From the NCBI GenBank assembly GCA_903883645.1, contig CAISBR010000089.1, forward strand, positions 1-37,392: DNA of 37,392 nt. The letters run 5' to 3'. Position numbers and translations under genes: made by a program. This DNA is from an uncultured Myxococcales bacterium. Its GTDB lineage: Bacteria; Myxococcota_A; UBA9042. Shown here piece by piece: positions 6,896-20,708 of the stretch. Below the pieces are notes generated by a model. That model had not been told where the DNA came from. It did no database searches and saw nothing but the letters and a program-made list of their open reading frames with translations. The first letter of the stretch is position 1; each line of letters begins with the position of its first letter.

Positions 6896-7022
6896 TGTCG
6901 CTTCCCCGCCGGCCGCCATCGTCGGCGACAAGATCAGGTGACACACCCCGCGCGCGCCACCCCTACAATGCACAGCGACTGCGCCCGCCATGGGCGCCCG
7001 CCGCGGCAAGGGGAGCAGCAAA

Positions 7023-9287
7023 ATGCGCGCATGGATTCGCAAGCTTGGAGCCATCTGGATCTCCGTCGTCGTCTTGATTGTGCTCTGCATCGCCCTGGCG
7101 AGCGGCACGCTGATCGAGTCGACCCAAGGGGCGGAGGCCGCCAAAATCGTCTACGATGCCGGCTGGTTTCGCGCCCTGCTCGCCATCTTCGCCATCAACA
7201 ACGCCTGCGCACTGATCGACCGCTTCCCTTGGGGCAAGCCGCGGATTGGCTTTGCGATTACCCACTCCGCGATGATCGTCATCTTGGTCGGCTCGTGGAT
7301 CACGCTGCAGTTCAAGGTCGAGGGCCAGCTGCCGCTGTACGAAGGCGAGTCGAGCGCGGCGTTCTTAGAGGGCGAGAGCGGCTCGCAAAAAGAGCATCCG
7401 CTGGGCTTTACCGTGCAGCTCGACGACTTTGAGCTCGGGCGCTATCCGGGCACTATGCGGCCGTCGCAGTTTCGCAGCAACGTGACCGTAACTCCCTCTG
7501 GCGGCGCGCCGTTTAAGGCTGTCATTCAAATGAATCAGCCGCTCTATTTCGGCGGGTGGAGCCTGTTTCAAAGCAGCTACGACATGGCCTCGGGCCGCGA
7601 GATGACGGTGCTGAGCGTGTCGCACGATCCGGGACAGGACGTAGTCTTCGTGGGTTACGGCCTATTGGTGCTGGGGATGTGCTGGGTGGCGGGCACGCGC
7701 ATCCAGGTGCGGCGCAAGATCGCGGCGGTGCAGAAGCAGATGGCGGCTGCGGCGGTTACGGCTGTGGCGCTGCTGTTAATGCTATGTACTTTATACGCTA
7801 TGCCGGCTGAGGCGACCTATATGCCCCCGGCCGATGTCGCCGACCGCCTGCACCGCCTGCCCGTGCAGCACGACGGCCGCTCCATGCCGCTCGAGACCAT
7901 GGCCAACGAAATGGTCAAGAAAGTCAGCGGGCCGTGCCTCGTGTACGAGAAAGACCCGGTGCGCCACCTGCTCGGTTGGGTGTATGACCCCCACGGTTGG
8001 GCCGACCTCGAGACCGTGTACGTGGGCGGCTCGGAGCTGGCGCTGGCGCTGGGTCTGCCGTCGACCGTGCAGTGCGCGTCGTTCAATGCGATCGCCGACA
8101 ATCCCCGGCTGCAGACCGTGATGCAGCAGGCCGAGGCCGCGCCCGACAAGGGCAAGCCCAAGCTGCTGCGCGACGCCGACGAACTGGGGAAGCGCCTAGA
8201 AATGCTCAATGGTTTCTACGATCATAGCGCCTTTCGCGTGCTGCCGGTGGCCGACCCGATGGGCAAGTGGCTGCCGCCGAGCTCGTTTAAGGGCCCCGAG
8301 GTGCTGCTCGATCTGGTCGCCAATCCGCCCAAGGGTTTCGCGCACTACCCCACCATTGCCAACATCGACTTAGAGCTACTGTACAACGGCGCCCGGCCGA
8401 CGCGGCTGGCGTGGCTGATTCTGGTGCCCGCGTCGGTGCTGGGTGCGCTTGGGCTGCGGCGGCCGCGCAAGCTTTACGATGTGGCCGGCGCGCTGGGCCT
8501 TGTGGCTGGTTTTGCCATGATGTCGTGGGGGATTTGGCTGCGCTGGCAGGTGGCTGGCCGGGTGCCCGCGTCGAACATGTACGAGTCGATGCTGTTCTTG
8601 GCTTGGGGCGTGGGCGCGTTTGCGATGGTGGCCTCGCTCTTCTGGCGGCAGCGCATGGTGGTGTTTAACGCCGCGGCGATGTCGGCTTTGACCATGCTCC
8701 TCATCGACTTACTGCCCATGGACGGCTTTGTGCACCCCGTGGCGCCGGTGCTATCGGGCACGGTGTGGCTGGCGATCCACGTGCCGATCATCATGGTCAG
8801 CTACTCGGTGCTGACGCTGGGCGTGCTGGTGGCGCACATGCAGATCGGCGTGACGATCTTTGCCAAAGATGGCGAGGAGTTGGCGCGCAAGCTGTACGAC
8901 TTGCTGTATTGGTACATCCTCATCGGCTCGATTCTGCTTATTGCCGGCATCCTTACCGGCTCGATCTGGGCCGCGTCGTCGTGGGGCCGCTACTGGGGCT
9001 GGGATCCCAAAGAGGTGTGGTCGCTCATCGCCTTCTTGGCCTACATGGCGATCTTACACGGCAAATTCGACCGTTTGATCGGCGCCTTTGGCGTGGCTGC
9101 CTTCAGCATCGGCGCGTTCTGGACCATCTTGATGACCTACCTGGGCGTCAACTACGTGCTCGCCGCCGGCATGCACTCGTACGGCTTTGGCGGCTCCGAC
9201 GTGGTCACCTGGATGATGGTCAGCGGCGCGGTCGAGGTCGCCTTCTTGGCCGCCGGCTTTGCCAAGCGCAAGCGGCTGCAGATCTGA
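7023..9287 (+). CDS. ccsBA: Fused ResB-CcsA cytochrome c synthetase (System II)
   Basis: Inner-membrane protein that carries heme outward and attaches it to CXXCH motifs of c-type cytochromes. 754 residues from ATG 7023; AAGGGGAG lies 8 nt upstream. The N-terminal ~270 residues are ResB-like: a first helix after MRAWIRKLG, a THSAMIVILVGSWI helix with a candidate heme-ligand His, and a periplasmic beta domain. A ~180-residue periplasmic stretch follows, and then from about residue 470 an eight-helix CcsA part. This has the WWD heme-binding motif WGRYWGWDPKEVWSLI flanked by periplasmic histidines in GFVHPVAP and GMHSYGFG. Such fusions are known from epsilon- and deltaproteobacteria and Bacteroidetes. 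It can service the decaheme protein encoded at 23135-26629. Confidence 0.9.
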   Translation: MRAWIRKLGAIWISVVVLIVLCIALASGTLIESTQGAEAAKIVYDAGWFRALLAIFAINNACALIDRFPWGKPRIGFAITHSAMIVILVGSWITLQFKVEGQLPLYEGESSAAFLEGESGSQKEHPLGFTVQLDDFELGRYPGTMRPSQFRSNVTVTPSGGAPFKAVIQMNQPLYFGGWSLFQSSYDMASGREMTVLSVSHDPGQDVVFVGYGLLVLGMCWVAGTRIQVRRKIAAVQKQMAAAAVTAVALLLMLCTLYAMPAEATYMPPADVADRLHRLPVQHDGRSMPLETMANEMVKKVSGPCLVYEKDPVRHLLGWVYDPHGWADLETVYVGGSELALALGLPSTVQCASFNAIADNPRLQTVMQQAEAAPDKGKPKLLRDADELGKRLEMLNGFYDHSAFRVLPVADPMGKWLPPSSFKGPEVLLDLVANPPKGFAHYPTIANIDLELLYNGARPTRLAWLILVPASVLGALGLRRPRKLYDVAGALGLVAGFAMMSWGIWLRWQVAGRVPASNMYESMLFLAWGVGAFAMVASLFWRQRMVVFNAAAMSALTMLLIDLLPMDGFVHPVAPVLSGTVWLAIHVPIIMVSYSVLTLGVLVAHMQIGVTIFAKDGEELARKLYDLLYWYILIGSILLIAGILTGSIWAASSWGRYWGWDPKEVWSLIAFLAYMAILHGKFDRLIGAFGVAAFSIGAFWTILMTYLGVNYVLAAGMHSYGFGGSDVVTWMMVSGAVEVAFLAAGFAKRKRLQI

Positions 9288-9397: not shown

Positions 9398-11746
9398 ATG
9401 ATGAGCGCAAAGATCTTGCAATTGTTCCGTTTACTGGCGCTGGTCGCCCTGGCGCTGCTGCCTGCCGCGGCTTGGGCTGTGCCGAACCAGGCGAGTGTTC
9501 AAGCCCTGTTCACCAGCAGCGGTGGTCCGGCGGCAGATGGTAACTACGCGGTTACGCTGCGGTTGTACGAAGACCAATACGCAGTGTCGGCGTTTTGGAC
9601 CGAGGGGCCGGTGTCGGTGTCAGTCAAAGGCGGGCTGTTCACCTGGAATATGGGTAGCAAAGTGCCGCTGACCCCTGAGGTTTTAGCCGGCAAGAGCCCG
9701 TGGCTCGCGGTGGCGGTGGGCCAAGACCCCGAGACCGACCGCGTGCCGCTGCAGTCGGTGCCGTTTGCCCTGCGCGCAGCGGTGGCCGAGGGCGTGAGTT
9801 GCGTGGGCTGCATCACCATGCAGAACCTGAACACCACGGCGAGTGGCGGTCTGGTCAAGACCTCGGACCTGGCTGGATTTGCCCAAAAAACTGACCTTGG
9901 TGACTACGTAAAAGCGGCTTCGCTGGCCAAGGTGGCGCAGACCGGCGGCTTCAAAGACCTGCTCGACGCGCCCAAACTGGCCGATGTTGCCAGCAGCGGT
10001 CTGTTCAGCGACCTCATCGGCACGCCCGTCTTGCCCAAGGCCGGCAGCACGTGTGGCACCGGTCTGGTGGTCAAGGGCATCAAGCAAGACGGCAGCCTCG
10101 AGTGTGTTACCGCGGGCGACTCGGCGATCGCCAAGCTATTTTCTACCGTGATTACTCAGCCTTTTGTGGCCAAGCCCGAGGTGCCGATCCTCGATGCCAG
10201 TCCGCAGGGTGTGTACGGCATTGCGACCGTGCCCTCGCTGGGGGCCGTCGATGCCGTCGAGATCGACGTGGATGTCGAAAATAGCAACGTGGCCAATGTG
10301 CGCTTAGAACTGCTTGATCCAGCGGGCAATTTGCTGACGCTGTACGATGGCGGCGCCACGGGTACCTCGTTGAAGACCACCTTTCCGACGCTGACCCCCG
10401 TGGCCAAGGGCACGCTCGACACGTGGAAGGGCAAGGATCCGCAGGGCAGCTGGTCGGTGATCGCCTACGACAAGCAAAAGACGAATGGCGGCACCGATGG
10501 CGTGCTGCACGCGTTTACCGTGCGCGTGACCTATAGTAACCAGAGTAAAGTACAGGTGAAGTCGGTGCTGATCGGCCCCGACGCCCAGCCGCTGGGGCGC
10601 ATTACAGCCAAGACGAGCGAGGCTCTGGCCGATGGTGCATCGCTGGCGGTGGCAACGGGCGCTGGACCTGCAGTGATGGCGCAGGGTTGGCTGTACGACG
10701 GCCAGACCAAGGTGTGGGTCGCGGCCAATACCGGCGCCAGCACGGTGGGCGGCTGTACCGACTGCGGCACCGGCAAAGATGGCGACTACCTCGCCGACAC
10801 CAACAAGAGCATGGTGGGTGGAACTTACGAATTTAAATCGTTTTCGATCAAGCCTGGCGTCACGGTCACGGTCACCGGCAGCGCGCCCCTGGTGCTAAAG
10901 GTGCAGGGATTGGTGCAGATCGACGGCCTGCTCGACCTGCGCGGCGGCGACGCGCCCGACGTCTCGACCTGTTGCCCCGATGCCCCGGGCGGTGCTGCCG
11001 GTGGCGGCGGCGGCTATGCGGGCGCGATCGGCCCTGGCGTCAGCGGTACCGCCAACGGCAATGGCCCCGGAGCGGGCGTCGGCGGTTGCGCCGCGGGCTA
11101 CGGTGCGGGCGGCGGAGGTGCGGGTCACGCGGGGGTGGGCGCGGCGGGAACCACGTCGCCGGCCTCGTGCTCGCCAGGCGGCACCGGCGGGCCGGCCTAT
11201 GGCAGCAGCAAGATGACCGCTGGCCTAGAGCCGGGTTCCGGTGGCGCATCGGGCGGTTACGGTTCGGCAGCGAATTCGGCGGGCGGCGGTGGCGGCGGCG
11301 GCGGCGGCGCGGTGCAGATCATCGCCAGTAAAATCGCTGTCAGCACAACGGGTTCAATTCGTGTCGACGGCGGCCATGGCGGCAACGTGATCGCCGACCG
11401 CGACGGTGGTGGCGGCGGTGGCGGCTCGGGTGGCGCCATTTGGCTGCGCGGGTCGCTGGTTACCATCGCTGGACCAGTGTCGGCCATGGGCGGTGCCGGC
11501 GGTAAGTCCGACAAGCTAAACAGCTACGGCGGCGACGGCGGCGATGGCTCAGCGGGGCGCATCATCATCGATTCGCCAGCGCCCGTGCAGGGTTCGACCA
11601 ATCCCAGCTACGAAAGCGTGGGCACCACTGGCCTCGACATCGCCGGCGCCAACAAGTTCGCCATGCAGACCGACGGAGCGGGCACCGTCACGCTCATTAA
11701 CCAGTCGGGTGCGGCGCAAAAGGTAATGCTAGTAGTGACTTACTAG
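9398..11746 (+). CDS. Large exported protein with P-domain and Gly-rich C-terminal region
   Basis: 782 residues, signal peptide (LLALVALALLPAAAWA, cleavage near residue 27). Residues ~28-130 form an all-beta domain (AVTLRLYED...VPLQSVPFALRA) seen at the N-terminus of many secreted myxobacterial-type proteins. Residues ~135-240 carry tail-fibre-like short repeats (TGGFKDLLDAPKLADVASSGLFSDLIGTP). Residues ~260-380 match the proprotein-convertase P-domain pattern (VRLELLDPAG, DTWKGKDPQGSWSV, DGVLHAFTVRV), but no protease domain is present. Residues ~500-740 are extremely Gly-rich with alternating beta segments (AIWLRGSLVTIAG), like a glycine-rich beta helix. Probably surface-located or secreted, with an adhesive or structural role; function unknown. 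The start could also be the ATG at 9401. Confidence 0.75.
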   Translation: MMSAKILQLFRLLALVALALLPAAAWAVPNQASVQALFTSSGGPAADGNYAVTLRLYEDQYAVSAFWTEGPVSVSVKGGLFTWNMGSKVPLTPEVLAGKSPWLAVAVGQDPETDRVPLQSVPFALRAAVAEGVSCVGCITMQNLNTTASGGLVKTSDLAGFAQKTDLGDYVKAASLAKVAQTGGFKDLLDAPKLADVASSGLFSDLIGTPVLPKAGSTCGTGLVVKGIKQDGSLECVTAGDSAIAKLFSTVITQPFVAKPEVPILDASPQGVYGIATVPSLGAVDAVEIDVDVENSNVANVRLELLDPAGNLLTLYDGGATGTSLKTTFPTLTPVAKGTLDTWKGKDPQGSWSVIAYDKQKTNGGTDGVLHAFTVRVTYSNQSKVQVKSVLIGPDAQPLGRITAKTSEALADGASLAVATGAGPAVMAQGWLYDGQTKVWVAANTGASTVGGCTDCGTGKDGDYLADTNKSMVGGTYEFKSFSIKPGVTVTVTGSAPLVLKVQGLVQIDGLLDLRGGDAPDVSTCCPDAPGGAAGGGGGYAGAIGPGVSGTANGNGPGAGVGGCAAGYGAGGGGAGHAGVGAAGTTSPASCSPGGTGGPAYGSSKMTAGLEPGSGGASGGYGSAANSAGGGGGGGGGAVQIIASKIAVSTTGSIRVDGGHGGNVIADRDGGGGGGGSGGAIWLRGSLVTIAGPVSAMGGAGGKSDKLNSYGGDGGDGSAGRIIIDSPAPVQGSTNPSYESVGTTGLDIAGANKFAMQTDGAGTVTLINQSGAAQKVMLVVTY

Positions 11747-12788: not shown

Positions 12789-12793
12789 TAGAC

Positions 12794-12813
12794 TGTTCAT
12801 ATCCTGTTCAAAG
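12794..12813 (-). promoter_or_regulatory. Putative CarH/LitR operator in front of the photolyase gene
   Basis: Minus strand CTTTGAACAGGATATGAACA; on the plus strand it appears as TGTTCA, five bases, TGTTCA, i.e. two identical half-sites exactly 11 bp apart. It overlaps the candidate -10 TATCCT and ends 25 bp before the ATG. 15 of 20 bases match the site in front of crtI. Confidence 0.6.
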
Positions 12814-12838
12814 CCGGAATGGCCACGCAGTGAACAGC

Positions 12839-14248
12839 ATGCCCGAACTCGCCCACCTCGTGCCTAATCCTGCGCTGCTAGCCCGCACGCGTCGCCGTTC
12901 CGACCGAGCCATTGGCGCCACGGGGCCGGTGGTGCTGTGGCTGCAGCGGGCGCAACGGGCCTACGATAACCCTGCGCTCGACCTGGCGATTTCGCTCGGT
13001 AACCGCCTGGGTGCGCCGGTGCTGGCCTTCTTGGCGCCGCGACCCGACTTCCCCCTGGCGCAACTGCGGCACTATGCGTTTATGGTGCAAGGGTTTGCGG
13101 GGTTGCAGCGCGATCTGGCCGCGCGCGGCGTGCCGCTGGTGCTGCGGGCGCCACCGCAGACGTCGCTGACTCAATTCTGCCGAGAGGTGGGGGCGCGGGC
13201 GGTGGTCGGCGACGAGTATCCCCTTGAATTTTCCGAGAAGTGGCGAGTGGCGGCGGGGCAGCGCCTGCCCGTGGCGTTGTGGACGGTCGAGGCGGACCTA
13301 GTGGTGCCGTCGCGAGCCCTGCCGGCGGGCGAGTTTTGGGCGGCGCACACCTTGCGGCCCAAGATCGCGCGGCAATTGGCGCAGTGGCTCGAACCGCAAC
13401 CCGAGCCGGTGGCGCAGGTGCCATGGGCGGGGCCGCTGCCGCGGAGCGAAGACCCTCAGGATGTTCAGGGTTTCTTGACCCGCATGGGGCCGCTGCCCAG
13501 CCTAGCGGGCGCGGTCAACCTGCCCGGTGGTCGCGACGCGGGCTTGCGGCGGCTGCAGCCGTGGACCGACGGCGGTCTCGCGAATTACATGGAGTTGCGC
13601 GACGATCCCAGCCAAGACGGCACCAGCATGTTGTCGCCGTATCTGCACTTTGGTCAGCTGGGGCCGCGCGAGGTGGCCCGTGCGGCGCTGTCGGCCGAGG
13701 CGCCCGAGGCGGCCCGGCTGGGCTTTGTGGAGCAGCTGGTGGTGCGGCGCGAGCTGGCCTGGCACTTTGTCGCGGGTAATCCGCACTACGCCACGCTGCA
13801 AGGCTGCGAGAACTGGGCAAAAAAGACCCTCGCCGAGCACCTTGGCGACCGCCGGCCGTACCAGTACAGCTATGCCCAGCTCGAGGCGGCGCAGACCCAC
13901 GACACGGCTTGGAATGCCGCGCAATTGCAGATGGTTCGCACCGGCTGGATGCACAACCGCATGCGCATGTACTGGGCCAAGCAGCTGCTGCTGTGGACCG
14001 CCGACCCTGAGCAGGCCTTTGCCTTTGCCCTACAGCTGAACGATACCTACCAGCTCGACGGGCGTGATCCCAATGGTTATACAGGGATTGCCTGGTCGAT
14101 CGGCGGCAAGCACGACCGGCCGTGGCCGCCGCATAAGCCGGTGTGGGGGCTGATTCGGCCGATGGTGGCGAGCGGTTTGGCCAAGAAATTCAACGTAGAG
14201 CTGTATGCGCGTCAGCAGGGGACCGCGCGGCAACCTGGCCTGCTGTAG
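12839..14248 (+). CDS. phr: Class II CPD photolyase
   Basis: Light-driven repair of cyclobutane pyrimidine dimers, using reduced FAD. 469 residues from ATG 12839; the frame is open upstream but the family starts here. The N-terminal Rossmann-like half begins VVLWLQRAQRAYDNPALDLAI, the class II counterpart of the antenna domain. The FAD half contains LVVRRELAWHF, HDTAWNAAQLQMVRTGWMHNRMRMYWAK and LNDTYQLDGRDPNGYTGIAWSIGG (from residue 400), all diagnostic of class II enzymes. It has its own operator-overlapped promoter. It ends inside the convergent crtB gene, a 59-bp overlap. Its placement beside carotenoid and CarH genes matches light-protection clusters of other bacteria. Confidence 0.93.
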   Translation: MPELAHLVPNPALLARTRRRSDRAIGATGPVVLWLQRAQRAYDNPALDLAISLGNRLGAPVLAFLAPRPDFPLAQLRHYAFMVQGFAGLQRDLAARGVPLVLRAPPQTSLTQFCREVGARAVVGDEYPLEFSEKWRVAAGQRLPVALWTVEADLVVPSRALPAGEFWAAHTLRPKIARQLAQWLEPQPEPVAQVPWAGPLPRSEDPQDVQGFLTRMGPLPSLAGAVNLPGGRDAGLRRLQPWTDGGLANYMELRDDPSQDGTSMLSPYLHFGQLGPREVARAALSAEAPEAARLGFVEQLVVRRELAWHFVAGNPHYATLQGCENWAKKTLAEHLGDRRPYQYSYAQLEAAQTHDTAWNAAQLQMVRTGWMHNRMRMYWAKQLLLWTADPEQAFAFALQLNDTYQLDGRDPNGYTGIAWSIGGKHDRPWPPHKPVWGLIRPMVASGLAKKFNVELYARQQGTARQPGLL

Positions 14249-15167
14249 CCGCGCTAGCGTCAGCGCCGGCAAAGCCTTGCAAGTGCTGGTGCAGACTGGG
14301 ATTGTGCGCCCCTCGCCACAGCGGTGCCAGCAGCGCCACCCCCACCGCCCATAGAGTGCCCAGCACTTTTTGCCACGCGGGCACCATCGCCCGGCCGCGC
14401 CACGGGTCGCCACCCTGCCGCCGCAGCCGATCGCCAATCATGCTATAGAGTTGTCCGGCCACCGCCACCGCGAGGCGGGGTTGCAGCGGCAAGAACCGGT
14501 AGCCCTGGCGGGCGCTGTGGTATAGGACATCGGCGTCGTGCAAAACCTGTTCAATCACTGGCAGCACGCCCCGCGGAGTTTGCCGCGCCACGAGCAGGTC
14601 GCCCGGCGCCACCCCGGCCTTCAGCAGCTGCACCGCGGGCAAGTAGGTGCGGCCCATCGTCGCGTCCTCGGCAACATCCCGACAAATATTAGTGCGTTGC
14701 ATGGCTAGGCCCAGGTCGATCGCATAGGGCAAGGCCCGTGTATCGCGCACGCCAAACAGCCCGCACATCAGCACGCCCACCGCGCCCGCCACCTGGTAGC
14801 AGTAGCGATCAAACTCAGCCTGTGAGCGCACTTGTACCTCGCCCAGGTCGCTTTGTACCCCATCGACCAGCGCCAGCAGTGCCCGCAGATCGATCTGCCG
14901 CCGCTGCACCAAGGCCAGCATCGCCGCCACTAGGGGCGCGGCCGATTCGCGCCGTTGCAGGTCGCGCCGCACACTGTTCAAAGCCGTTTCAGCCTGTGCG
15001 GGATCGGGCGACTCGTCCGCCAAGTCGTCGAGATAACGACAGAAAGCGTAGGTGATGGCTACATCTTGCTGCAGCTGCCGGCCCAGCAGCGCTGCCGCCC
15101 ACGCAAAGGTGCGCGCGTGCTTTTGCAGACTGGCTTGGCTAGCGGCCAGCACCGCGGGCGCGCTCAC
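14190..15167 (-). CDS. crtB: Phytoene synthase
   Basis: Condenses two geranylgeranyl diphosphates into phytoene. 325 residues with the two Asp-rich motifs of head-to-head prenyl synthases: YLDDLADE (about 45-52) and NICRDVAED (about 160-168), plus AYAFCR-like ITYAFCRYLDD and RTYLP. It starts with GTG at 15167, which overlaps the crtI stop as GTGA, implying translational coupling. The C-terminal ~35 residues (Ala/Gly-rich) extend beyond the usual end and overlap the convergent photolyase gene. It could formally be a squalene synthase homologue, but the crtE-crtI context decides for phytoene synthase. Confidence 0.93.
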   Translation of the reverse strand: MSAPAVLAASQASLQKHARTFAWAAALLGRQLQQDVAITYAFCRYLDDLADESPDPAQAETALNSVRRDLQRRESAAPLVAAMLALVQRRQIDLRALLALVDGVQSDLGEVQVRSQAEFDRYCYQVAGAVGVLMCGLFGVRDTRALPYAIDLGLAMQRTNICRDVAEDATMGRTYLPAVQLLKAGVAPGDLLVARQTPRGVLPVIEQVLHDADVLYHSARQGYRFLPLQPRLAVAVAGQLYSMIGDRLRRQGGDPWRGRAMVPAWQKVLGTLWAVGVALLAPLWRGAHNPSLHQHLQGFAGADASAATAGQVAARSPADAHTALR

Positions 15168-16705
15168 GCCGGCACCGTCAGCGGCAGCAAGGGCTGGCTC
15201 TGGTCCTGCAAAACAGCTTGCGGCAGCAGGTGTTCAAGCACCTTGGCCGACGACAGCACGCCCGGTACCCCCGCGCCCGGATGCGTGCCCGCGCCCACAA
15301 AATACAGGCCTTGCACATCCTCGGAGCGGTTGTGGTAGCGGAACCAGGCCGACTGGGTCAGCGTCGGCTGCGGCCCAAAGGCGGCGCCCTGCATCGAGCG
15401 CAGCCGGCCCGCGAAATACCGCGTATCCACAGCGAAACTGGTGACCAGATGCTTGCGCAGGTCGGGCACACAGCGCTCCTCTAGGGTCTGCAGCACCGCG
15501 TCGAGGTACTGCGGCTGGCGCTCCTCCCAGTCGATACGGCCGATTTCATTGGGGATTGGCGATAGCACATAGAAGCTCTCGTGTCCCGCCGGCGCCATGC
15601 TGGGGTCGCTGCGGGTCGGCGCGTGCAGGTACAACGACATATCGCTGCTCAGGATCTTTTTATCAAAGATATCGCGAAGAAGCCCCTCGTAGCGCGGCCC
15701 CAGCACGATGGTGTGGTGCGCGAGATCGGGGTAAGTGCGGTTGGTGCCAAAGTAGGCGACGAACAGGCTCATCGACTGTTTGACCTTGTGCACCCGGCGA
15801 TCGGTATTCTTCTTGCGGTGTTGCGCCCCAATCATCGTCGAGTACACCATCGACGGGTCGGCATTGCACACCACCGCATCCGCGGCGTAGCGCTGGCCCC
15901 CCGCCGTGCGCACTGCCACCGCCTTGCCGTGCTCGACCTCGATCTGCTCGACCGGGCTGTTGTAGTCGATTTCTACACCCAAGTCGCCCAGCAGCCTGGT
16001 CAGCGCGCGGATAAGGCTGCCGGTGCCGCCCTTGGCCCAGTGCACGCCCCACTTGCGCTCAAGCCAATGAATTAGCAGGTAAATCGACGAGGTGTCCAGC
16101 GGATTGCCGCCGACCAGCAATGGCTCGAACGAGAACACCTGCTGCAGTCGAGGATCCTTAATATACTCACTAACTTGGCCAAAGACGCTTTTGTAGTTGC
16201 CCAGCCGCAGCATGTCGGGCACTACCCGCAGCATGTCGCTCAGGCGGTCAAACGGCGTGTGGGCCAACTGGCTGTAACCAATGTCGAAGATTCGCTCAGC
16301 GTGCGCTGCCAGCTTGCGATAGCCGTCGACATCGCGCGGCGACATCGCGTGGATCTGCTGCAACAGGCGCTCTTCGTCGCCCACATAGTCAAAGCGCGAC
16401 CCGTCGGGAAAATCGACGCGATAGAACGGATCGACGGGCACCAACTCAAAGTAATCGCGGGCATTCTTGCCGTGCAGGCTGAACAGTTCGTCGAGCAGAT
16501 ACGGCGCGGTAATTACCGTGGGCCCGGCGTCAAAGGTAAAGCCTTCGCGGTGAAACACCGAGGCGCGCCCACCGGCTTGCTCATTGGCTTCGAGCACTTT
16601 GACGTCGTAGCCCTTGGCGCGCAGCCGCACCGCCGCCGCCAGACCGCCAAAGCCCGCGCCGACCACCACTGCCTGCCGCTTGTTGCGATGTACTTGAGTT
16701 TGCAT
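15164..16705 (-). CDS. crtI: CrtI-type phytoene desaturase
   Basis: FAD-dependent desaturase that introduces four double bases' worth of unsaturation into phytoene to give lycopene. 513 residues. The N-terminal dinucleotide-binding motif VVVGAGFGGLAAAVRL is followed by EANEQAGGRASVF, and the C-terminal carotenoid-oxidoreductase signature is GLYFVGAGTHPGAGVPGVLSSAKV. ATG 16705 is preceded by AGAGGACGG. It is the middle gene of crtE-crtI-crtB, with its own putative CarH operator in the 48-bp gap after crtE. A neurosporene-forming three-step variant cannot be excluded from sequence alone, but crtY and crtZ nearby fit a lycopene producer. Confidence 0.93.
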   Translation of the reverse strand: MQTQVHRNKRQAVVVGAGFGGLAAAVRLRAKGYDVKVLEANEQAGGRASVFHREGFTFDAGPTVITAPYLLDELFSLHGKNARDYFELVPVDPFYRVDFPDGSRFDYVGDEERLLQQIHAMSPRDVDGYRKLAAHAERIFDIGYSQLAHTPFDRLSDMLRVVPDMLRLGNYKSVFGQVSEYIKDPRLQQVFSFEPLLVGGNPLDTSSIYLLIHWLERKWGVHWAKGGTGSLIRALTRLLGDLGVEIDYNSPVEQIEVEHGKAVAVRTAGGQRYAADAVVCNADPSMVYSTMIGAQHRKKNTDRRVHKVKQSMSLFVAYFGTNRTYPDLAHHTIVLGPRYEGLLRDIFDKKILSSDMSLYLHAPTRSDPSMAPAGHESFYVLSPIPNEIGRIDWEERQPQYLDAVLQTLEERCVPDLRKHLVTSFAVDTRYFAGRLRSMQGAAFGPQPTLTQSAWFRYHNRSEDVQGLYFVGAGTHPGAGVPGVLSSAKVLEHLLPQAVLQDQSQPLLPLTVPA

Positions 16706-16725
16706 GTCCGTCCTCTGCCTTGCGC

Positions 16726-16745
16726 GGTTGAATAGGTTTTGAACA
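16726..16745 (+). promoter_or_regulatory. Putative CarH/LitR operator in front of crtI
   Basis: Plus strand GGTTGAATAGGTTTTGAACA: two TTGAA half-sites whose starts are 11 bp apart. It lies 21 bp upstream of the crtI ATG, in the short gap after crtE, so crtI-crtB can be regulated separately from crtE. Confidence 0.6.
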
Positions 16746-16753
16746 AGATCTGG

Positions 16754-17836
16754 CTAGTGCCCACGCAACTGCGCGAGTTTGTGGCTTAGTCCTGCCGCCA
16801 GCCCACCCACTAGCTCTTGCAGCGCGTGCGGCAAGGTGGCGCACTGCTTGGGTAAGTCGCGCAGGCAGCGTTCGCAGCGCTCGAGCACCGCATCGCGGGC
16901 GCCGCTCTGCACAAATTCGTCTGTCCATGCCAGCACTTGCTCATCGGTGTGCTGGGGCCGCGGCAGGCGCAGCCAGGCCAAAAGCTCGGCGCCGCGCTGC
17001 GGATCGCGGTCGAGGGTCGCCGCCACCAGCGCACTGACCTTGCCCTCGCGCAGATCGGCACCGGGGGCCTCGCGGCCCTTCTGGCCCCACAAGTCCTCGA
17101 TATCATCAGCAAGTTGAAAGAGCAGCCCCAGATCGAGCAGCCCTTCGCTGGCCCGCCGCGCCGCCGGCCCCGACCAGCCCGCCAGGATCAGCACCCCCTC
17201 GAGCGCCAGCGCAAAGAACGGACCGGTCTTGGCCCGCGCCGCCTGTTCGTAATCGAGCCAATTGACTGCAGGTTGCAGGATCAGCAGCTGCTCTTGCGAC
17301 TGCCCGCACGCGGTCAAGATCGAGCGCTCGACCAGGGCGCGGGTCAGTTCCCAGCGCTCGATCGGGGCGTAACCCGGCACATCCAAAGCGCGAATCGGTG
17401 CCAGCAGCATCAGATCGCCGGCGTTGATCGCCTGCGCCAGGCCGTGGCGTACCCACAGAGCCGGCTGGCCGCGGCGCATGGCGTCGCCATCTTGCACATC
17501 GTCGTGCACCAGTGTGGCGTTGTGCAGAATTTCGCAAGCAGCGGCCCAGGGTTGCAATCGTTCCGCCTCTAGCCCGAGCGCTTCGCCGGCCTGCTGAATC
17601 AGCCGCGCCCGCACGCGCTTGCCACCCGAGCCAAGGTGTTCGGCGATCATCGCCGGCAGCGGCCCCGGCCCCGACACGGCGGCCAGCATGTGGCGCAGCA
17701 GCGGATCGGTCGTCGGGTTGCGGCCACGTTGTGGCGCGGTTCGGGCATGGCGAGTGCCGAGACGGCGATCAAGCCCTTGTACTGCGCCAGGTTGTGTGTG
17801 CGCCGGCAAGGGGCGGAGCGGTGCGATGGTCGCCAT
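16754..17836 (-). CDS. crtE: Geranylgeranyl diphosphate synthase (polyprenyl synthetase)
   Basis: Builds the C20 precursor for phytoene by adding isopentenyl units to an allylic diphosphate. 360 residues from ATG 17836 with GAGGA upstream; a GTG start at 17917 would add a non-homologous N-terminus. The first Asp-rich motif is VHDDVQDGDAMRRG (DDVQD 112-116) and the second is FQLADDIEDLWG (DDIED 244-248). The Lys of GGKRVRARL near residue 73 is the expected diphosphate contact. The residues before the first Asp-rich motif (HNATLV) are small, consistent with chains beyond C15. Product length is assigned mainly from the neighbours. It is the first gene of the crtE-crtI-crtB group. Confidence 0.88.
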   Translation of the reverse strand: MATIAPLRPLPAHTQPGAVQGLDRRLGTRHARTAPQRGRNPTTDPLLRHMLAAVSGPGPLPAMIAEHLGSGGKRVRARLIQQAGEALGLEAERLQPWAAACEILHNATLVHDDVQDGDAMRRGQPALWVRHGLAQAINAGDLMLLAPIRALDVPGYAPIERWELTRALVERSILTACGQSQEQLLILQPAVNWLDYEQAARAKTGPFFALALEGVLILAGWSGPAARRASEGLLDLGLLFQLADDIEDLWGQKGREAPGADLREGKVSALVAATLDRDPQRGAELLAWLRLPRPQHTDEQVLAWTDEFVQSGARDAVLERCERCLRDLPKQCATLPHALQELVGGLAAGLSHKLAQLRGH

Positions 17837-18034
17837 GGTGCGGTCGGTCCTCGGCGCCGGCAGGGCGCTTGTCCTTAGGATGCACGCCGCGCGTTCAAGG
17901 GTGTGCGCGATTTGCACAGATTATGAACCATGGTCGGTCGCGGTTGTGCGGTCTTTAACATCTTGGAATAACGTGATTGTGTAAATGAGCGCAGGTGCGA
18001 GTGCAAAAATATCGCCGTCGGTCCGTTCAGAACC

Positions 18035-18063
18035 TTGACAAGCTTGTGCGGATTGAATAGCTT
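18035..18063 (+). promoter_or_regulatory. Candidate sigma-70-type promoter of the ECF sigma gene
   Basis: A perfect -35 TTGACA (18035-18040) is followed after 17 bp by TAGCTT as a poor -10. The putative CarH operator (18051-18070) covers the spacer end and -10, which would suit repression in the dark. The -10 is weak, so the assignment is tentative. Confidence 0.4.
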
Positions 18064-18070
18064 TTGAACC
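18051..18070 (+). promoter_or_regulatory. Putative CarH/LitR operator in front of the ECF sigma gene
   Basis: GATTGAATAGCTTTTGAACC: two TTGAA half-sites 11 bp apart, 16 of 20 bases identical to the crtI site. It lies in the divergent crtE/ECF intergenic region, 31 bp before the ECF ATG, and about 215 bp from the crtE start. Confidence 0.6.
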
Positions 18071-18101
18071 GGTGCCCAGGGTGGTGCCGCTAGGTCTGCC
18101 A

Positions 18102-18722
18102 ATGCCCGCTTCCGCTATCGCTGCCCTCAGTCTGGTCGAGCGCCTGACCGCCCGCGACCCCCGCGCCGTCGACGAGTTTTACCGCCAGTACCGTCCGCGC
18201 ATCCTGGCCGTGGCGCTGCGCGTGGTTGGCAATCCGTGGGATGCCGAAGAGGTTTTGCAAGATGTGGTGTGGACGGTGGTGCGCAAGGCCGATACGTTTC
18301 GTGGCGAGGCCGAGTTCAGCTCGTGGCTGTACCGGGTGACCCAGAACTGCGCCAAGATGCTGCTGCGGAAGCGCAAACGGGTGCCGCTGCCCCTCAGCCC
18401 CGAGCAACTTGAGCCGGCCGTGGCGCGCGCGGGCCTGGCGACGCCCGACCTGCACGACCAGACCGAGCACCGTCAGCTTGCGGTGCAGCTGCACGAGCAG
18501 GTTGGGCGGCTCGATACCATGAATCAGCAGATCTTTTGGCTTGCAGAAGTCGAGGGCGAGGCGGCGGCGGAGATTGGCGCGCGGTTGGGGCTGACGGTGT
18601 CGGCGATCAAGGCGCGATTGTTCCGGATTCGTGCCACGCTGCGGCTGGGCATGGGTGGTCTGGTGCAGTTTCCTGCGGTCGATGGGCCGTTTGTGGCGCC
18701 GGCCCAGTTGCAAGCGGCGTGA
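18102..18722 (+). CDS. ECF-type RNA polymerase sigma factor of the light locus
   Basis: 206 residues. Sigma region 2 spans about residues 22-95 (AVDEFYRQYRPRILAVALRVVG, DAEEVLQDVVWTVVRKADTFRGEAEFSSWLYRV), and region 4 about 135-185 (MNQQIFWLAEVEGEAAAEIGARLGLTVSAIKARLFRIRATL). There is no transmembrane or zinc-binding anti-sigma gene next to it; the next gene is the CarH-like regulator. The layout recalls Streptomyces LitS beside LitR and Myxococcus CarQ, ECF factors that turn on carotenoid genes in light. ATG 18102 is preferred; GTG codons at 18072-18086 are in frame but overlap or abut the operator. Its target promoters could not be identified by eye. Confidence 0.85.
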   Translation: MPASAIAALSLVERLTARDPRAVDEFYRQYRPRILAVALRVVGNPWDAEEVLQDVVWTVVRKADTFRGEAEFSSWLYRVTQNCAKMLLRKRKRVPLPLSPEQLEPAVARAGLATPDLHDQTEHRQLAVQLHEQVGRLDTMNQQIFWLAEVEGEAAAEIGARLGLTVSAIKARLFRIRATLRLGMGGLVQFPAVDGPFVAPAQLQAA

Positions 18723-18753
18723 GGGGCACTGCAAGTGGATCAGCGCTGCCCAG

Positions 18754-18773
18754 GGTTGAAACGGTTTTGCCTA
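18754..18773 (+). promoter_or_regulatory. Putative CarH/LitR operator in front of carH
   Basis: GGTTGAAACGGTTTTGCCTA matches 15 of 20 bases of the crtI site. The first TTGAA half-site is intact; the second has decayed to TTGCC. It lies between the ECF gene stop and the carH ATG (51 bp before it), as expected for autoregulation. Confidence 0.5.
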
Positions 18774-18824
18774 GGATTTGCACGCGCGGCCGTTCCAAGG
18801 CACTCTATGGGCTAAGGAGTTCGC

Positions 18825-19826
18825 ATGACTAGGCAGAGCCTCGCCAAAACGGCACTTGCAGATCAGGCGAGGCCTGTCGAAGCCCACAGCGAGCCGCGGT
18901 TGAGCATTGGCGCGCTGGCGCGGGCTGCAGATATTCCCGTTGAAACTTTGAGGACTTGGGAGCGACGCTACGGCTTTCCCATCGGCATGCGCGATGAGGC
19001 GGGGCAGCGACACTACCACCTGTCGACGCCGGTGCATCTGTTGCTCATCAAGCAAGCGCTGCAACTGGGCATGCGGGCGGCGCAAGTGGTGCCGTTGCCG
19101 CTTCACGAGCTGCGACGGGTGCTCGCCGAGTCGGACGTGGCGTCGAAGCCAACAGTTGAGGCGCCCCCTGTGGGGTCGGCGCCGGAGCCACTGCCGCCGG
19201 ACCAGGAGCTCACCGCCGAGCTGGCGCGCTGGATCGATGCTGTGCGGCGCTTTGATGCCGCCGCTCTGTCCGGAGAACTTCAGCGCGCGTGGAATCAAGT
19301 GGGCAGCGTGGCGTTTTTAGACGACCTGGCGCGACCGTTCATGATCGAAGTGGGGCAGCGCTGGGCGCGGGGCGAGTTGAATGTGGCGCACGAACACTTT
19401 GCCACCGAGCAACTGCGCGCGCGGCTATCCGACATGGCTGTCGCGGACCGGCACGGCGCCCCCACGGTAATCTGCGCCAACTTGCCGGGCGAAATGCACA
19501 GTCTGGGCTTAGAAATGGCAGCTGTGGTGGTGCGCCAGACGGGCCTGCGCGTACTGTACTTGGGCGCCGACATGCCGCTGACTGACCTGGCCCAGGCTGT
19601 CAGGTATGCCCATACATTCATGACGTTGATTGGGGTGGTGGTGAGTCTGTCGGCCTCAATTGAGGTGATGCACGCCCGCGACCAAATGGCCCGCTTGCGG
19701 AGCTTGGTGCCGCAGTCGGTGCCGGTGCTGGCGGGTGGCGGTGGGGCGCCTAGCGATGTCGCTGGGGTGCTGGCGCTGCCGAACTTGCGGAGTCTGCAGG
19801 TGTGGGCCCAAAACAAGTTGGCCTAG
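18825..19826 (+). CDS. carH: CarH/LitR-type B12-dependent photoreceptor and MerR-family repressor
   Basis: 333 residues. The N-terminal MerR winged helix is at ~26-95 (LSIGALARAADIPVETLRTWERRYGFP). After a Pro-rich linker comes a cobalamin-binding helical domain with the diagnostic W180-x9-E190-H191 (WARGELNVAHEHFATEQLR), then a Rossmann B12 domain with E223-x-H225-x-x-G228 (the upper and lower ligand motifs of CarH). All known light-sensing residues are therefore present. In characterised CarH proteins the adenosylcobalamin-bound tetramer represses in the dark and falls apart in light. ATG 18825 has AAGGAG 7 nt upstream. It is followed at 72 bp by the macrodomain-sirtuin pair on the same strand. 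Confidence 0.9.
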   Translation: MTRQSLAKTALADQARPVEAHSEPRLSIGALARAADIPVETLRTWERRYGFPIGMRDEAGQRHYHLSTPVHLLLIKQALQLGMRAAQVVPLPLHELRRVLAESDVASKPTVEAPPVGSAPEPLPPDQELTAELARWIDAVRRFDAAALSGELQRAWNQVGSVAFLDDLARPFMIEVGQRWARGELNVAHEHFATEQLRARLSDMAVADRHGAPTVICANLPGEMHSLGLEMAAVVVRQTGLRVLYLGADMPLTDLAQAVRYAHTFMTLIGVVVSLSASIEVMHARDQMARLRSLVPQSVPVLAGGGGAPSDVAGVLALPNLRSLQVWAQNKLA

Positions 19827-19898
19827 TGGTAGCCCCTGGCGCGTGGTCAACCGGCTGCTATCTTGGCCGACCCGCCGCGCCCGGCGCCCAAGGCTGCC

Positions 19899-20708
19899 AT
19901 GCTGCACGCCCCTGACTCGACCGATGCTCTGACTCGGAACATTCTGAATATCCTGGGTGATCATCCGCTTGGCGATGCGCGCGAGGCTAGGACGCGGGTG
20001 CAGGCGCTGCTGACGCGGGTGCCCCCGGGCGAGCTGCCTGAGGCGGTGTGGCCACTTCTTGAGTCGCTGTGGCAGGCTGAGACCCATGGCCGCCAGCCGA
20101 CCGTGGCGTTCGACTTGCCGCGGCTGGCCAAGCACGGCTGGGCGTCGCGGGTGAGCCTGTGGCGCGGTGACATCACTACATTGGCGGTACAAGCGATTGT
20201 TAATGCGGCGAATTCTGGCCTGACGGGTTGCTATCATCCCATGCACGCCTGTGTCGACAACGCCATCCACACGGCCGCCGGTCCGTGGCTGCGCGAGGCC
20301 TGTGGCCGCATAATGGCGGAGCGTGGCCGGCCCGAGTCGACCGCTACGGCGACGCTGACCCCCGGATTCTTCTTGCCGGCGGCGCATGTGCTGCACACCG
20401 TGGGGCCGATTGTGCACGGCGGGCGGCCCAGCTTGGGCGACGAGCGCGACCTGAGCCAGTGCTATACGGCTTGCTGCGAGGCCGCGGTGCCGTGGCCTGC
20501 GGGGCCGATGCCACGCAATCTCGCGTTTTGTAGCATCTCAACGGGGGTGTTCGGCTATCCGATCGCCCAGGCGGCGCCCCGGGCTTTGGCGACGGTGCGG
20601 GCCGTGCTCGAGCGCGAACCTAGCTTAGAGCAAGTAGTTTTTGTGACGTACTCTGCCCACGATGCGGCCGTATATGCCGCCGCTGCCCAGGAGGCCCTGC
20701 ATGTCTAG
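19899..20708 (+). CDS. Zinc-type macrodomain protein (SirTM-linked ADP-ribosyl hydrolase)
   Basis: 269 residues, close to the ~265 of characterised relatives. An N-terminal helical part (~1-75) precedes the macrodomain: LWRGDITTLAVQAIVNAANSGLTG (ADP-ribose-binding GDIT and VNAAN at 101-105), then CYHPMHACVDNAIHTAAG, the Cys/His cluster typical of the zinc-containing subclass, and later ISTGVFGYP. These proteins remove mono-ADP-ribose from protein and are found in operons with class M sirtuins. ATG 19899 has AAGG 7-10 nt upstream; a TTG at 19863 is less likely. The 3' end overlaps the sirtuin start by 8 bp. The usual partners GcvH-L and LplA2 are not in the window. Confidence 0.9.
   Translation: MLHAPDSTDALTRNILNILGDHPLGDAREARTRVQALLTRVPPGELPEAVWPLLESLWQAETHGRQPTVAFDLPRLAKHGWASRVSLWRGDITTLAVQAIVNAANSGLTGCYHPMHACVDNAIHTAAGPWLREACGRIMAERGRPESTATATLTPGFFLPAAHVLHTVGPIVHGGRPSLGDERDLSQCYTACCEAAVPWPAGPMPRNLAFCSISTGVFGYPIAQAAPRALATVRAVLEREPSLEQVVFVTYSAHDAAVYAAAAQEALHV

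Follow-up and report, generated by a model that had tools for sequence, protein, structure and literature searches.

Genes and repeats of the locus

The window, i.e. the whole stretch of DNA that was analysed (37,392 nucleotides; contig CAISBR010000089.1 of GenBank assembly GCA_903883645.1, an uncultured Myxococcales bacterium), contains a photolyase gene (phr), the genes crtB, crtI and crtE, a gene of an extracytoplasmic function (ECF) sigma factor (ecf) and carH, the gene of a CarH protein. Short direct repeats of CarH type, starting 11 base pairs (bp) apart, stand before phr, crtI, crtE and ecf and, as a degenerate set, before carH; these repeats and their probable reader are the subject of this work. 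The genes are:

12839..14248, + strand: phr, DNA photolyase (PF00875; best NCBIfam match TIGR00591 phr2, below cut-off)
14190..15167, − strand: crtB, squalene/phytoene synthase family (family match)
15164..16705, − strand: crtI, phytoene desaturase family (TIGR02734, over cut-off)
16754..17836, − strand: crtE, polyprenyl synthetase (family match; start codon 17836 by the analysts' choice)
18102..18722, + strand: ecf, ECF sigma factor (PF04542, PF08281)
18825..19826, + strand: carH, MerR-type DNA-binding domain and B12-binding domains (RTWERRY helix, WARGELNVAHEH, EMHSLG)

Half-sites were scored on the core T--ACA (TnnACA) of the published CarH repeat, 5'-nnnnTnnACAn-3' as given in PMC9304148, four positions each, in 11-bp steps:

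12793..12814, − strand: phr operator, CarH-type, TGAACA-N5-TGAACA (4/4 + 4/4)
16725..16746, + strand, antisense to crtI: crtI operator, TGAATA-N5-TGAACA (3/4 + 4/4)
17909..17930, + strand: crtE operator, TGCACA-N5-TGAACC (4/4 + 3/4)
18050..18071, + strand: ecf operator, TGAATA-N5-TGAACC (3/4 + 3/4), first repeat over the predicted −10 box
18753..18785, + strand: carH operator, degenerate, in three registers, TGAAAC / TGCCTA / TGCACG (2/4, 2/4, 3/4)

Thus two repeats are present at phr, crtI, crtE and ecf and three degenerate ones at carH; at least one full TnnACA repeat is found at the phr, crtI and crtE sites. When intergenic pairs of the window were counted by spacing (8–25 bp), 11 bp gave five (phr twice, crtI, crtE, ecf) and every other spacing 0 or 1.

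An earlier note on this DNA had proposed four copies of one 20-bp CarH operator, before phr, crtI, ecf and carH. All four 20-mers were recovered at the positions given there, and they lie 25, 20, 31 and 51 bp ahead of phr, crtI, ecf and carH, in agreement with the claimed 20–55 bp (starts used, by the analysts' choice: phr 12839, crtI 16705, ecf 18102, carH 18825). The ATG at 18102 was favoured over the GTG at 18072 as the ecf start because the operator and the −10 box sit just upstream of it. The claimed identity of 15–16 of 20 positions to the crtI copy was reproduced for phr (15/20, in reverse complement only) and carH (15/20); for ecf it is 17/20. At phr, crtI and ecf the half-sites are spaced by precisely 11 bp; the carH copy has a broken second half-site. 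A shared CarH-type operator stands before phr, crtI and ecf, weakly before carH, and is conserved in relatives; the crtE site had been overlooked. The half-site had also been called unlike those of other CarH proteins. TGTTCA is not foreign to CarH, since on the other strand it reads TGAACA, an instance of TnnACA, as is TGTACA; its spelling is distinct in a narrow sense, as an apparent dialect of one CarH clade (see below).

Occurrence in the genome

The genome searched comprises 5,989,005 bp in 244 contigs. TGAACAN5TGAACA occurs exactly at two places, both in the window: 12794-12810, before phr, and 9496-9512, in a predicted gene. With one mismatch nine more places were found, the crtI site among them. 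At up to two mismatches, nine of the 136 places of the genome fall in the window (0.85 expected by length); four of these nine lie in predicted genes, the other five between genes. Exact matches to TTGAAYAGSTTTTGAAC are two only, the crtI and ecf sites, from which the pattern was taken. The genome-wide scan proposed by the earlier note had a mixed outcome: exact TGAACA pairs were confined to the window, and loose matches were at background.

Off-locus matches were classified by a simple codon-usage gene caller on 50 fetched loci (part of all matches; some overlap, as at C51 and C24). Three loci were too short; of the remaining 47, 43 lie in predicted genes, two (both in C51) precede a predicted gene by at most 250 bp, and two are in neither position. 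A wider regulon was considered and rejected for the C51 matches, located in a Cys-rich repeat region (by eye), and for a pair in C147, located inside an open reading frame of 604 amino acids, radical-SAM-like by eye. No further convincing promoter site was found among the off-locus matches followed (the 47 classified loci); as far as these loci show, the regulon would be local.

Conservation in relatives

Relatives were collected by a contig scan with the window CarH, which gave 52 loci, with Myxococcales or Deltaproteobacteria in many of their titles; L079–L082, short partial matches, were dropped from counts upstream of carH, leaving 48. Within 400 bp before carH, 11-bp pairs (at least 10/12 match) gave 30 matches in 19 of the 48 loci, where 2.7 would be expected from the remaining DNA of these loci; 10 bp gave 4 and 12 bp 6, and lesser excesses were seen at 17 bp (12) and 22 bp (11). 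The presence of a site before carH in these 19 loci suggests autoregulation. In all 52 loci TTGAAN5TTTGAA with at most one mismatch was found at 30 places and its reversed control at 6. In an alignment of 49 sites from relatives the information is concentrated in the repeat pair, TTTTGAACAG-n-TTTTGAACAG, and low in the flanks; the sites had been selected by the pair itself, and the flanks were not used in selection.

L032 and L033 are assigned to the window's genus, L031 and L034 to its family, and the gene order of L032 is identical to that of the window (phr crtB crtI crtE ecf carH). Equivalent sites stand before ecf in all four, before carH in L031, L032 and L033, and before phr in L031. 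At the places in L032 that correspond to the ecf and carH sites of the window full repeats are present; the carH operator there reads TGAACA / TGCGCA / TGCACA, a clearer three-repeat set. Among the phr loci with readable upstream DNA (window, L031, L043, L044, L068) a site was found in 4/5 and none in L044; the L043 site is common to phr and a divergent ecf.

Same-strand pairs of neighbouring two-repeat sites 41–43 or 51–55 bp apart (about 4 or 5 helical turns) were observed in L036, L040, L041, L046, L049, L058, L059, L061 and L067. These distances make up 9 of 18; the others are 22, 32, 46, 47, 48, 63, 83, 94 and 118 bp. Phasing at 10.5 bp gave P 0.01 vs uniform, several rows being related. 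Helical pairing of operators was kept as a lead only, no such pattern being seen in the six opposite-strand pairs either.

Predicted promoter boxes and site orientation

The boxes predicted for ecf are:

18035..18040, + strand: −35 box TTGACA, the same in L031 and L032
18058..18063, + strand: −10 box TAGCTT, 17 bp after TTGACA

After TTGACA-N17- the predicted promoter reads TAGCTT in the window and in L031, TAGTAT in L032. The first ecf repeat is TGAATA in all three and overlaps the predicted −10 box in all three; that it has T where phr has C would be explained by this T beginning the −10 box. A promoter-like box pair was found in 7 of 36 site-bearing upstream regions, against 1.2 in shuffled DNA, and overlaps a site in 5 (null mean 1.8, P 0.012). 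By-eye search of the DNA before phr, crtI and crtE assigned no sigma70 promoter, and carH likewise has none assigned. Sites were counted 67 times in 84 upstream regions (an intergenic site may count for both genes), antisense to the gene in 51 cases and sense in 16; this prevalence of antisense sites agrees with a repressor operator and argues against −35 elements.

The CarH protein

By its Pfam, NCBIfam and PDB matches the protein is assigned as CarH. The DNA-binding domain matches PF13411/PF00376 and has an RxWERRY-type helix, RTWERRY; the best PDB match is CarH 5c8d (E 8.6e-25). The match to NF052513 (E 1.5e-29, 103 bits) lies under the 400-bit cut-off. A phylum sample of 140 genomes was searched with this model (matches in 71; 90 of the 91 listed matches used, the window's own left out); the cut-off is unfit for this phylum, because none of the 140 genomes reaches it. 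As the earlier note had stated, the upper-ligand motif Wx9EH (WARGELNVAHEH) and the B12-binding motif D/ExHxxG (EMHSLG in the alignment to 5c8d) are both intact. An ATP:cobalamin adenosyltransferase family match is located elsewhere in the genome, which makes a supply of adenosylcobalamin plausible.

The residue after Trp is Ala, not His132, and a His stands at 140, just before EH. In light-exposed Thermus CarH, His132 ligates cobalt; His132 after Trp, with its bis-His light state, is said to occur in many CarH proteins without defining them. According to PMC10442372, Thermus CarH H132A largely keeps its tetrameric state when illuminated aerobically, and the paper notes that disassembly had been reported before; since the window CarH has Ala at this position, a direct question about the CarH photocycle is raised. 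His132 and His140 were counted in proteins with Wx9EH from three samples. Window-like proteins (Wx9EH in 113/120; a list biased towards the query): His132 1, His140 95, neither 17, both 0. Thermus-like proteins (115/120): His132 108, His140 3, neither 4, both 0. Phylum sample (88/90): His132 7, His140 33, neither 48, both 0. The two residues occur together in 0 of 316 proteins and neither in 69, the samples possibly overlapping. A role of His140 as replacement light ligand was retained as a lead only; most proteins of the phylum sample (48 of 88) have neither residue, and independent switches on the tree are too few.

Proposed regulation and alternatives

It is probable (about 85%), as judged from the sequence, that the neighbouring CarH binds the repeat pairs before phr, crtI, crtE and ecf and the degenerate set before carH in the dark, with adenosylcobalamin, and releases them in the light. 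We infer the binding, its dependence on B12, the response to light and the repression alike. CarH with adenosylcobalamin would likely sit on all these operators in the dark; at ecf a steric block of the housekeeping RNA polymerase is predicted, because the operator overlaps the predicted −10 box of TTGACA-N17-TAGCTT. On illumination CarH would let go of the operators, and photolyase, carotenoid synthesis, the sigma factor and CarH itself would be switched on, the ECF sigma factor being a likely amplifier. Streptomyces has a light circuit made up of LitR and the sigma factor LitS.

Several points weigh against this assignment. In the window the ecf and carH sites are without any full TnnACA repeat, and the carH operator is weak. 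Three or more contiguous repeats would be expected of mapped CarH operators, which have three to five (PMC9304148), and only two were found at phr, crtI, crtE and ecf; a footprinted CarH site described in the same source has as little as one full and two degenerate repeats. Four TGAACA-type 11-bp pairs of equal quality lie inside predicted genes: 9496-9512, near the start of the open reading frame 9398-11746; 13462-13478, in phr; 14537-14553 and 14975-14991, in crtB. These may be either chance or extra CarH contacts. Genome-wide the loose motif is background, because the 136 places with at most two mismatches compare with 158 for the reversed-pattern control; the 38 places of TTGAAYAGSTTTTGAAC with at most three mismatches likewise compare with 39, and the consensus used for counting derives partly from the sites counted. 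A site at most 300 bp upstream was found for 1/8 of the relatives' crtI-like matches (L053), several of these matches being distant, and crtI of L032 has only a flipped, weaker copy. The pair before carH is absent in 29/48 relatives and in 73/90 loci of the phylum sample.

The repeats could instead be TGAAC-like −35 elements read by the neighbouring ECF sigma factor, with no repressor operator involved. ECF −35 boxes can be GAAC-like, the ECF gene adjoins, and 17/48 relatives have an ECF match immediately before carH; this reading is nevertheless given little credence, since the sites stand in both orientations relative to the genes (51 antisense, 16 sense), the 11-bp tandem step is no promoter feature, ecf has predicted boxes of its own (TTGACA-N17-TAGnnT), and 15 of the 19 relatives with a site at most 500 bp before carH are without an ECF match directly upstream, some contigs being short.

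Equally improbable is that a regulator other than CarH binds the repeats and CarH is a bystander. The 73 of 90 phylum loci that hold a CarH-like gene with no upstream pair would suit such a regulator; against it, repeat spelling follows the CarH clade, the site fits the CarH repeat published in PMC9304148, and a site stands before carH itself in 19/48 relatives.

Chance likeness, as between AT-rich promoters of a genome otherwise rich in GC, for which the equality of the loose counts with their reversed controls (38 vs 39, 136 vs 158) could be quoted, is very improbable: both exact copies are in the window, near-matches are enriched there (nine vs 0.85 expected), 43 of 47 classified off-locus matches lie in predicted genes, and the 11-bp spacing, which stands out in relatives, already makes it unlikely.

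Operator spelling and CarH clades

In the phylum sample, TGAACA pairs at 11 bp were found within 350 bp before carH at 17/90 loci and within carH coding DNA at 1/90; other spacings from 7 to 24 bp gave 1 to 9 loci (10 bp 5; 12 bp 7; highest, 17 bp, 9). The TGAACA pair accompanies 13/25 CarH proteins with RTWERRY vs 4/65 of all others (Fisher P 4e-6, a value that ignores relatedness).

A spelling-neutral test was made on 11-bp pairs that match the T--ACA core (at least 7/8; a half-site in two pairs counted twice). At RTWERRY loci (12 with matches) position 2 is G in 28/36 and position 3 is A in 28/36 half-site counts; at RAWERRY/RMWERRY loci (10 with matches) position 2 is A in 28/48 and position 3 is G in 34/48. 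No split of like size was found at spacings of 9, 10, 12 and 13 bp. Exceptions are, for the T type, L212 (TGCACA/TGGACA) and L242 (TCAACA/TCAACC) and, for the A type, L214 and L244 (TGAACA or TGTACA), L173 and L179 being mixed. L195, L196 and L205 are related and so not independent in these counts. Strong tandem TAGACA repeats at 11 bp were seen before RAWERRY/RMWERRY-type carH in L188, L195, L196 and L205. In 138 pooled upstream regions (some loci twice) the most frequent TnnACA hexamer is TGAACA (94; next TCGACA, 36); exact TnnACA pairs at 11 bp number 16 in 11 regions, mostly TAGACA, and other spacings gave at most 5.

A quick tree of 89 rows groups the RTWERRY proteins in a single clade (SH-aLRT, a likelihood-ratio branch support, 100) of 28 rows, 25 of which carry T. 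The RTWERRY clade tends to TGAACA, and the RAWERRY/RMWERRY types appear to tend to TnGACA, mostly TAGACA; given this single clade, the dialect is described as a clade trait only. The helix residue as its cause was rejected, residue and clade being inseparable and wing position 61 and others separating the groups equally. The link between the RTWERRY clade and the TGAACA spelling is new here; the titles and abstracts that searches of an open-licence library brought up gave neither this dialect nor a Myxococcota ecf-carH operon with CarH operators.

A broader proposal is offered tentatively, at somewhat less than even odds: the DNA-binding domain may set the spelling, the Thr-WERRY clade using TGAACA on compact two-repeat operators and the Ala/Met types TAGACA, so that the two "n" of TnnACA would be a readable code, and the His just before EH may replace His132 as a re-sited light switch. 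The idea of a code is in line with a protein–DNA correlation method for the MerR family, in which, as reported in PMC5045206 for other subfamilies, most correlated pairs fall in the recognition helix. If such a helix-to-spelling rule were true, regulons could be read from sequence, and separate CarH–operator pairs could serve light-controlled expression.

Comparison with known systems

The CarH operators described in PMC9304148 for Sorangium cellulosum and Haliangium ochraceum share with the window tandem 11-bp TnnACA repeats with degenerate copies, a position on proposed promoter elements and a carotenoid cluster that includes carH. Insoluble myxobacterial CarH was handled in that work by joining its DNA-binding domain to the B12 domain of the Thermus protein. 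Three or four repeats were footprinted there; the window has a two-repeat TGAACA core, known from sequence, and differs in that photolyase and ECF sigma genes carry sites too. CarH operators had been mapped in cultured species of Myxococcota for carotenoid genes; here a photolyase and an ECF sigma gene are candidates as well.

Thermus thermophilus CarH (PDB 5c8d/5c8e; PMC9304148) shares the domains, Wx9EH, ExHxxG and a direct-repeat operator; it has RQWERRY and His132, whereas the window CarH has RTWERRY, Ala at 132 and His at 140.

The CarA/CarH system of Myxococcus xanthus with carQRS, according to PMC8156234 and PMC9304148, is similar in light-induced carotenogenesis and in repeats over promoter elements. 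Its CarQ is an ECF factor under the anti-sigma factor CarR and singlet oxygen (same sources); in the window, unlike M. xanthus, ecf stands directly before carH and has a CarH-type site at its predicted −10 box.

Pseudomonas class II LitR, described in PMC9758184, belongs to the same LitR/CarH family, has TGTACA half-sites (TnnACA type) and counts photolyase among the light-induced genes. Its site is TGTACA-N12-TGTACA, and it is said there to be without B12 binding; the window repeats start 11 bp apart.

Further features of the window

The phr product matches the N-terminal Pfam photolyase model only (E 0.001), no flavin adenine dinucleotide-binding photolyase domain being among the Pfam matches listed; TIGR00591 (phr2) covers residues 27-458 of 469. 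The convergent phr and crtB frames share 59 bp at their 3' ends (14190-14248). At 6990-9287 a single reading frame has ResB-like and cytochrome c assembly (PF01578) matches and is likely a fused cytochrome c biogenesis protein. Downstream of carH, on the same strand, a gene of a macro-domain protein (PF01661) is located at 19863-20708.

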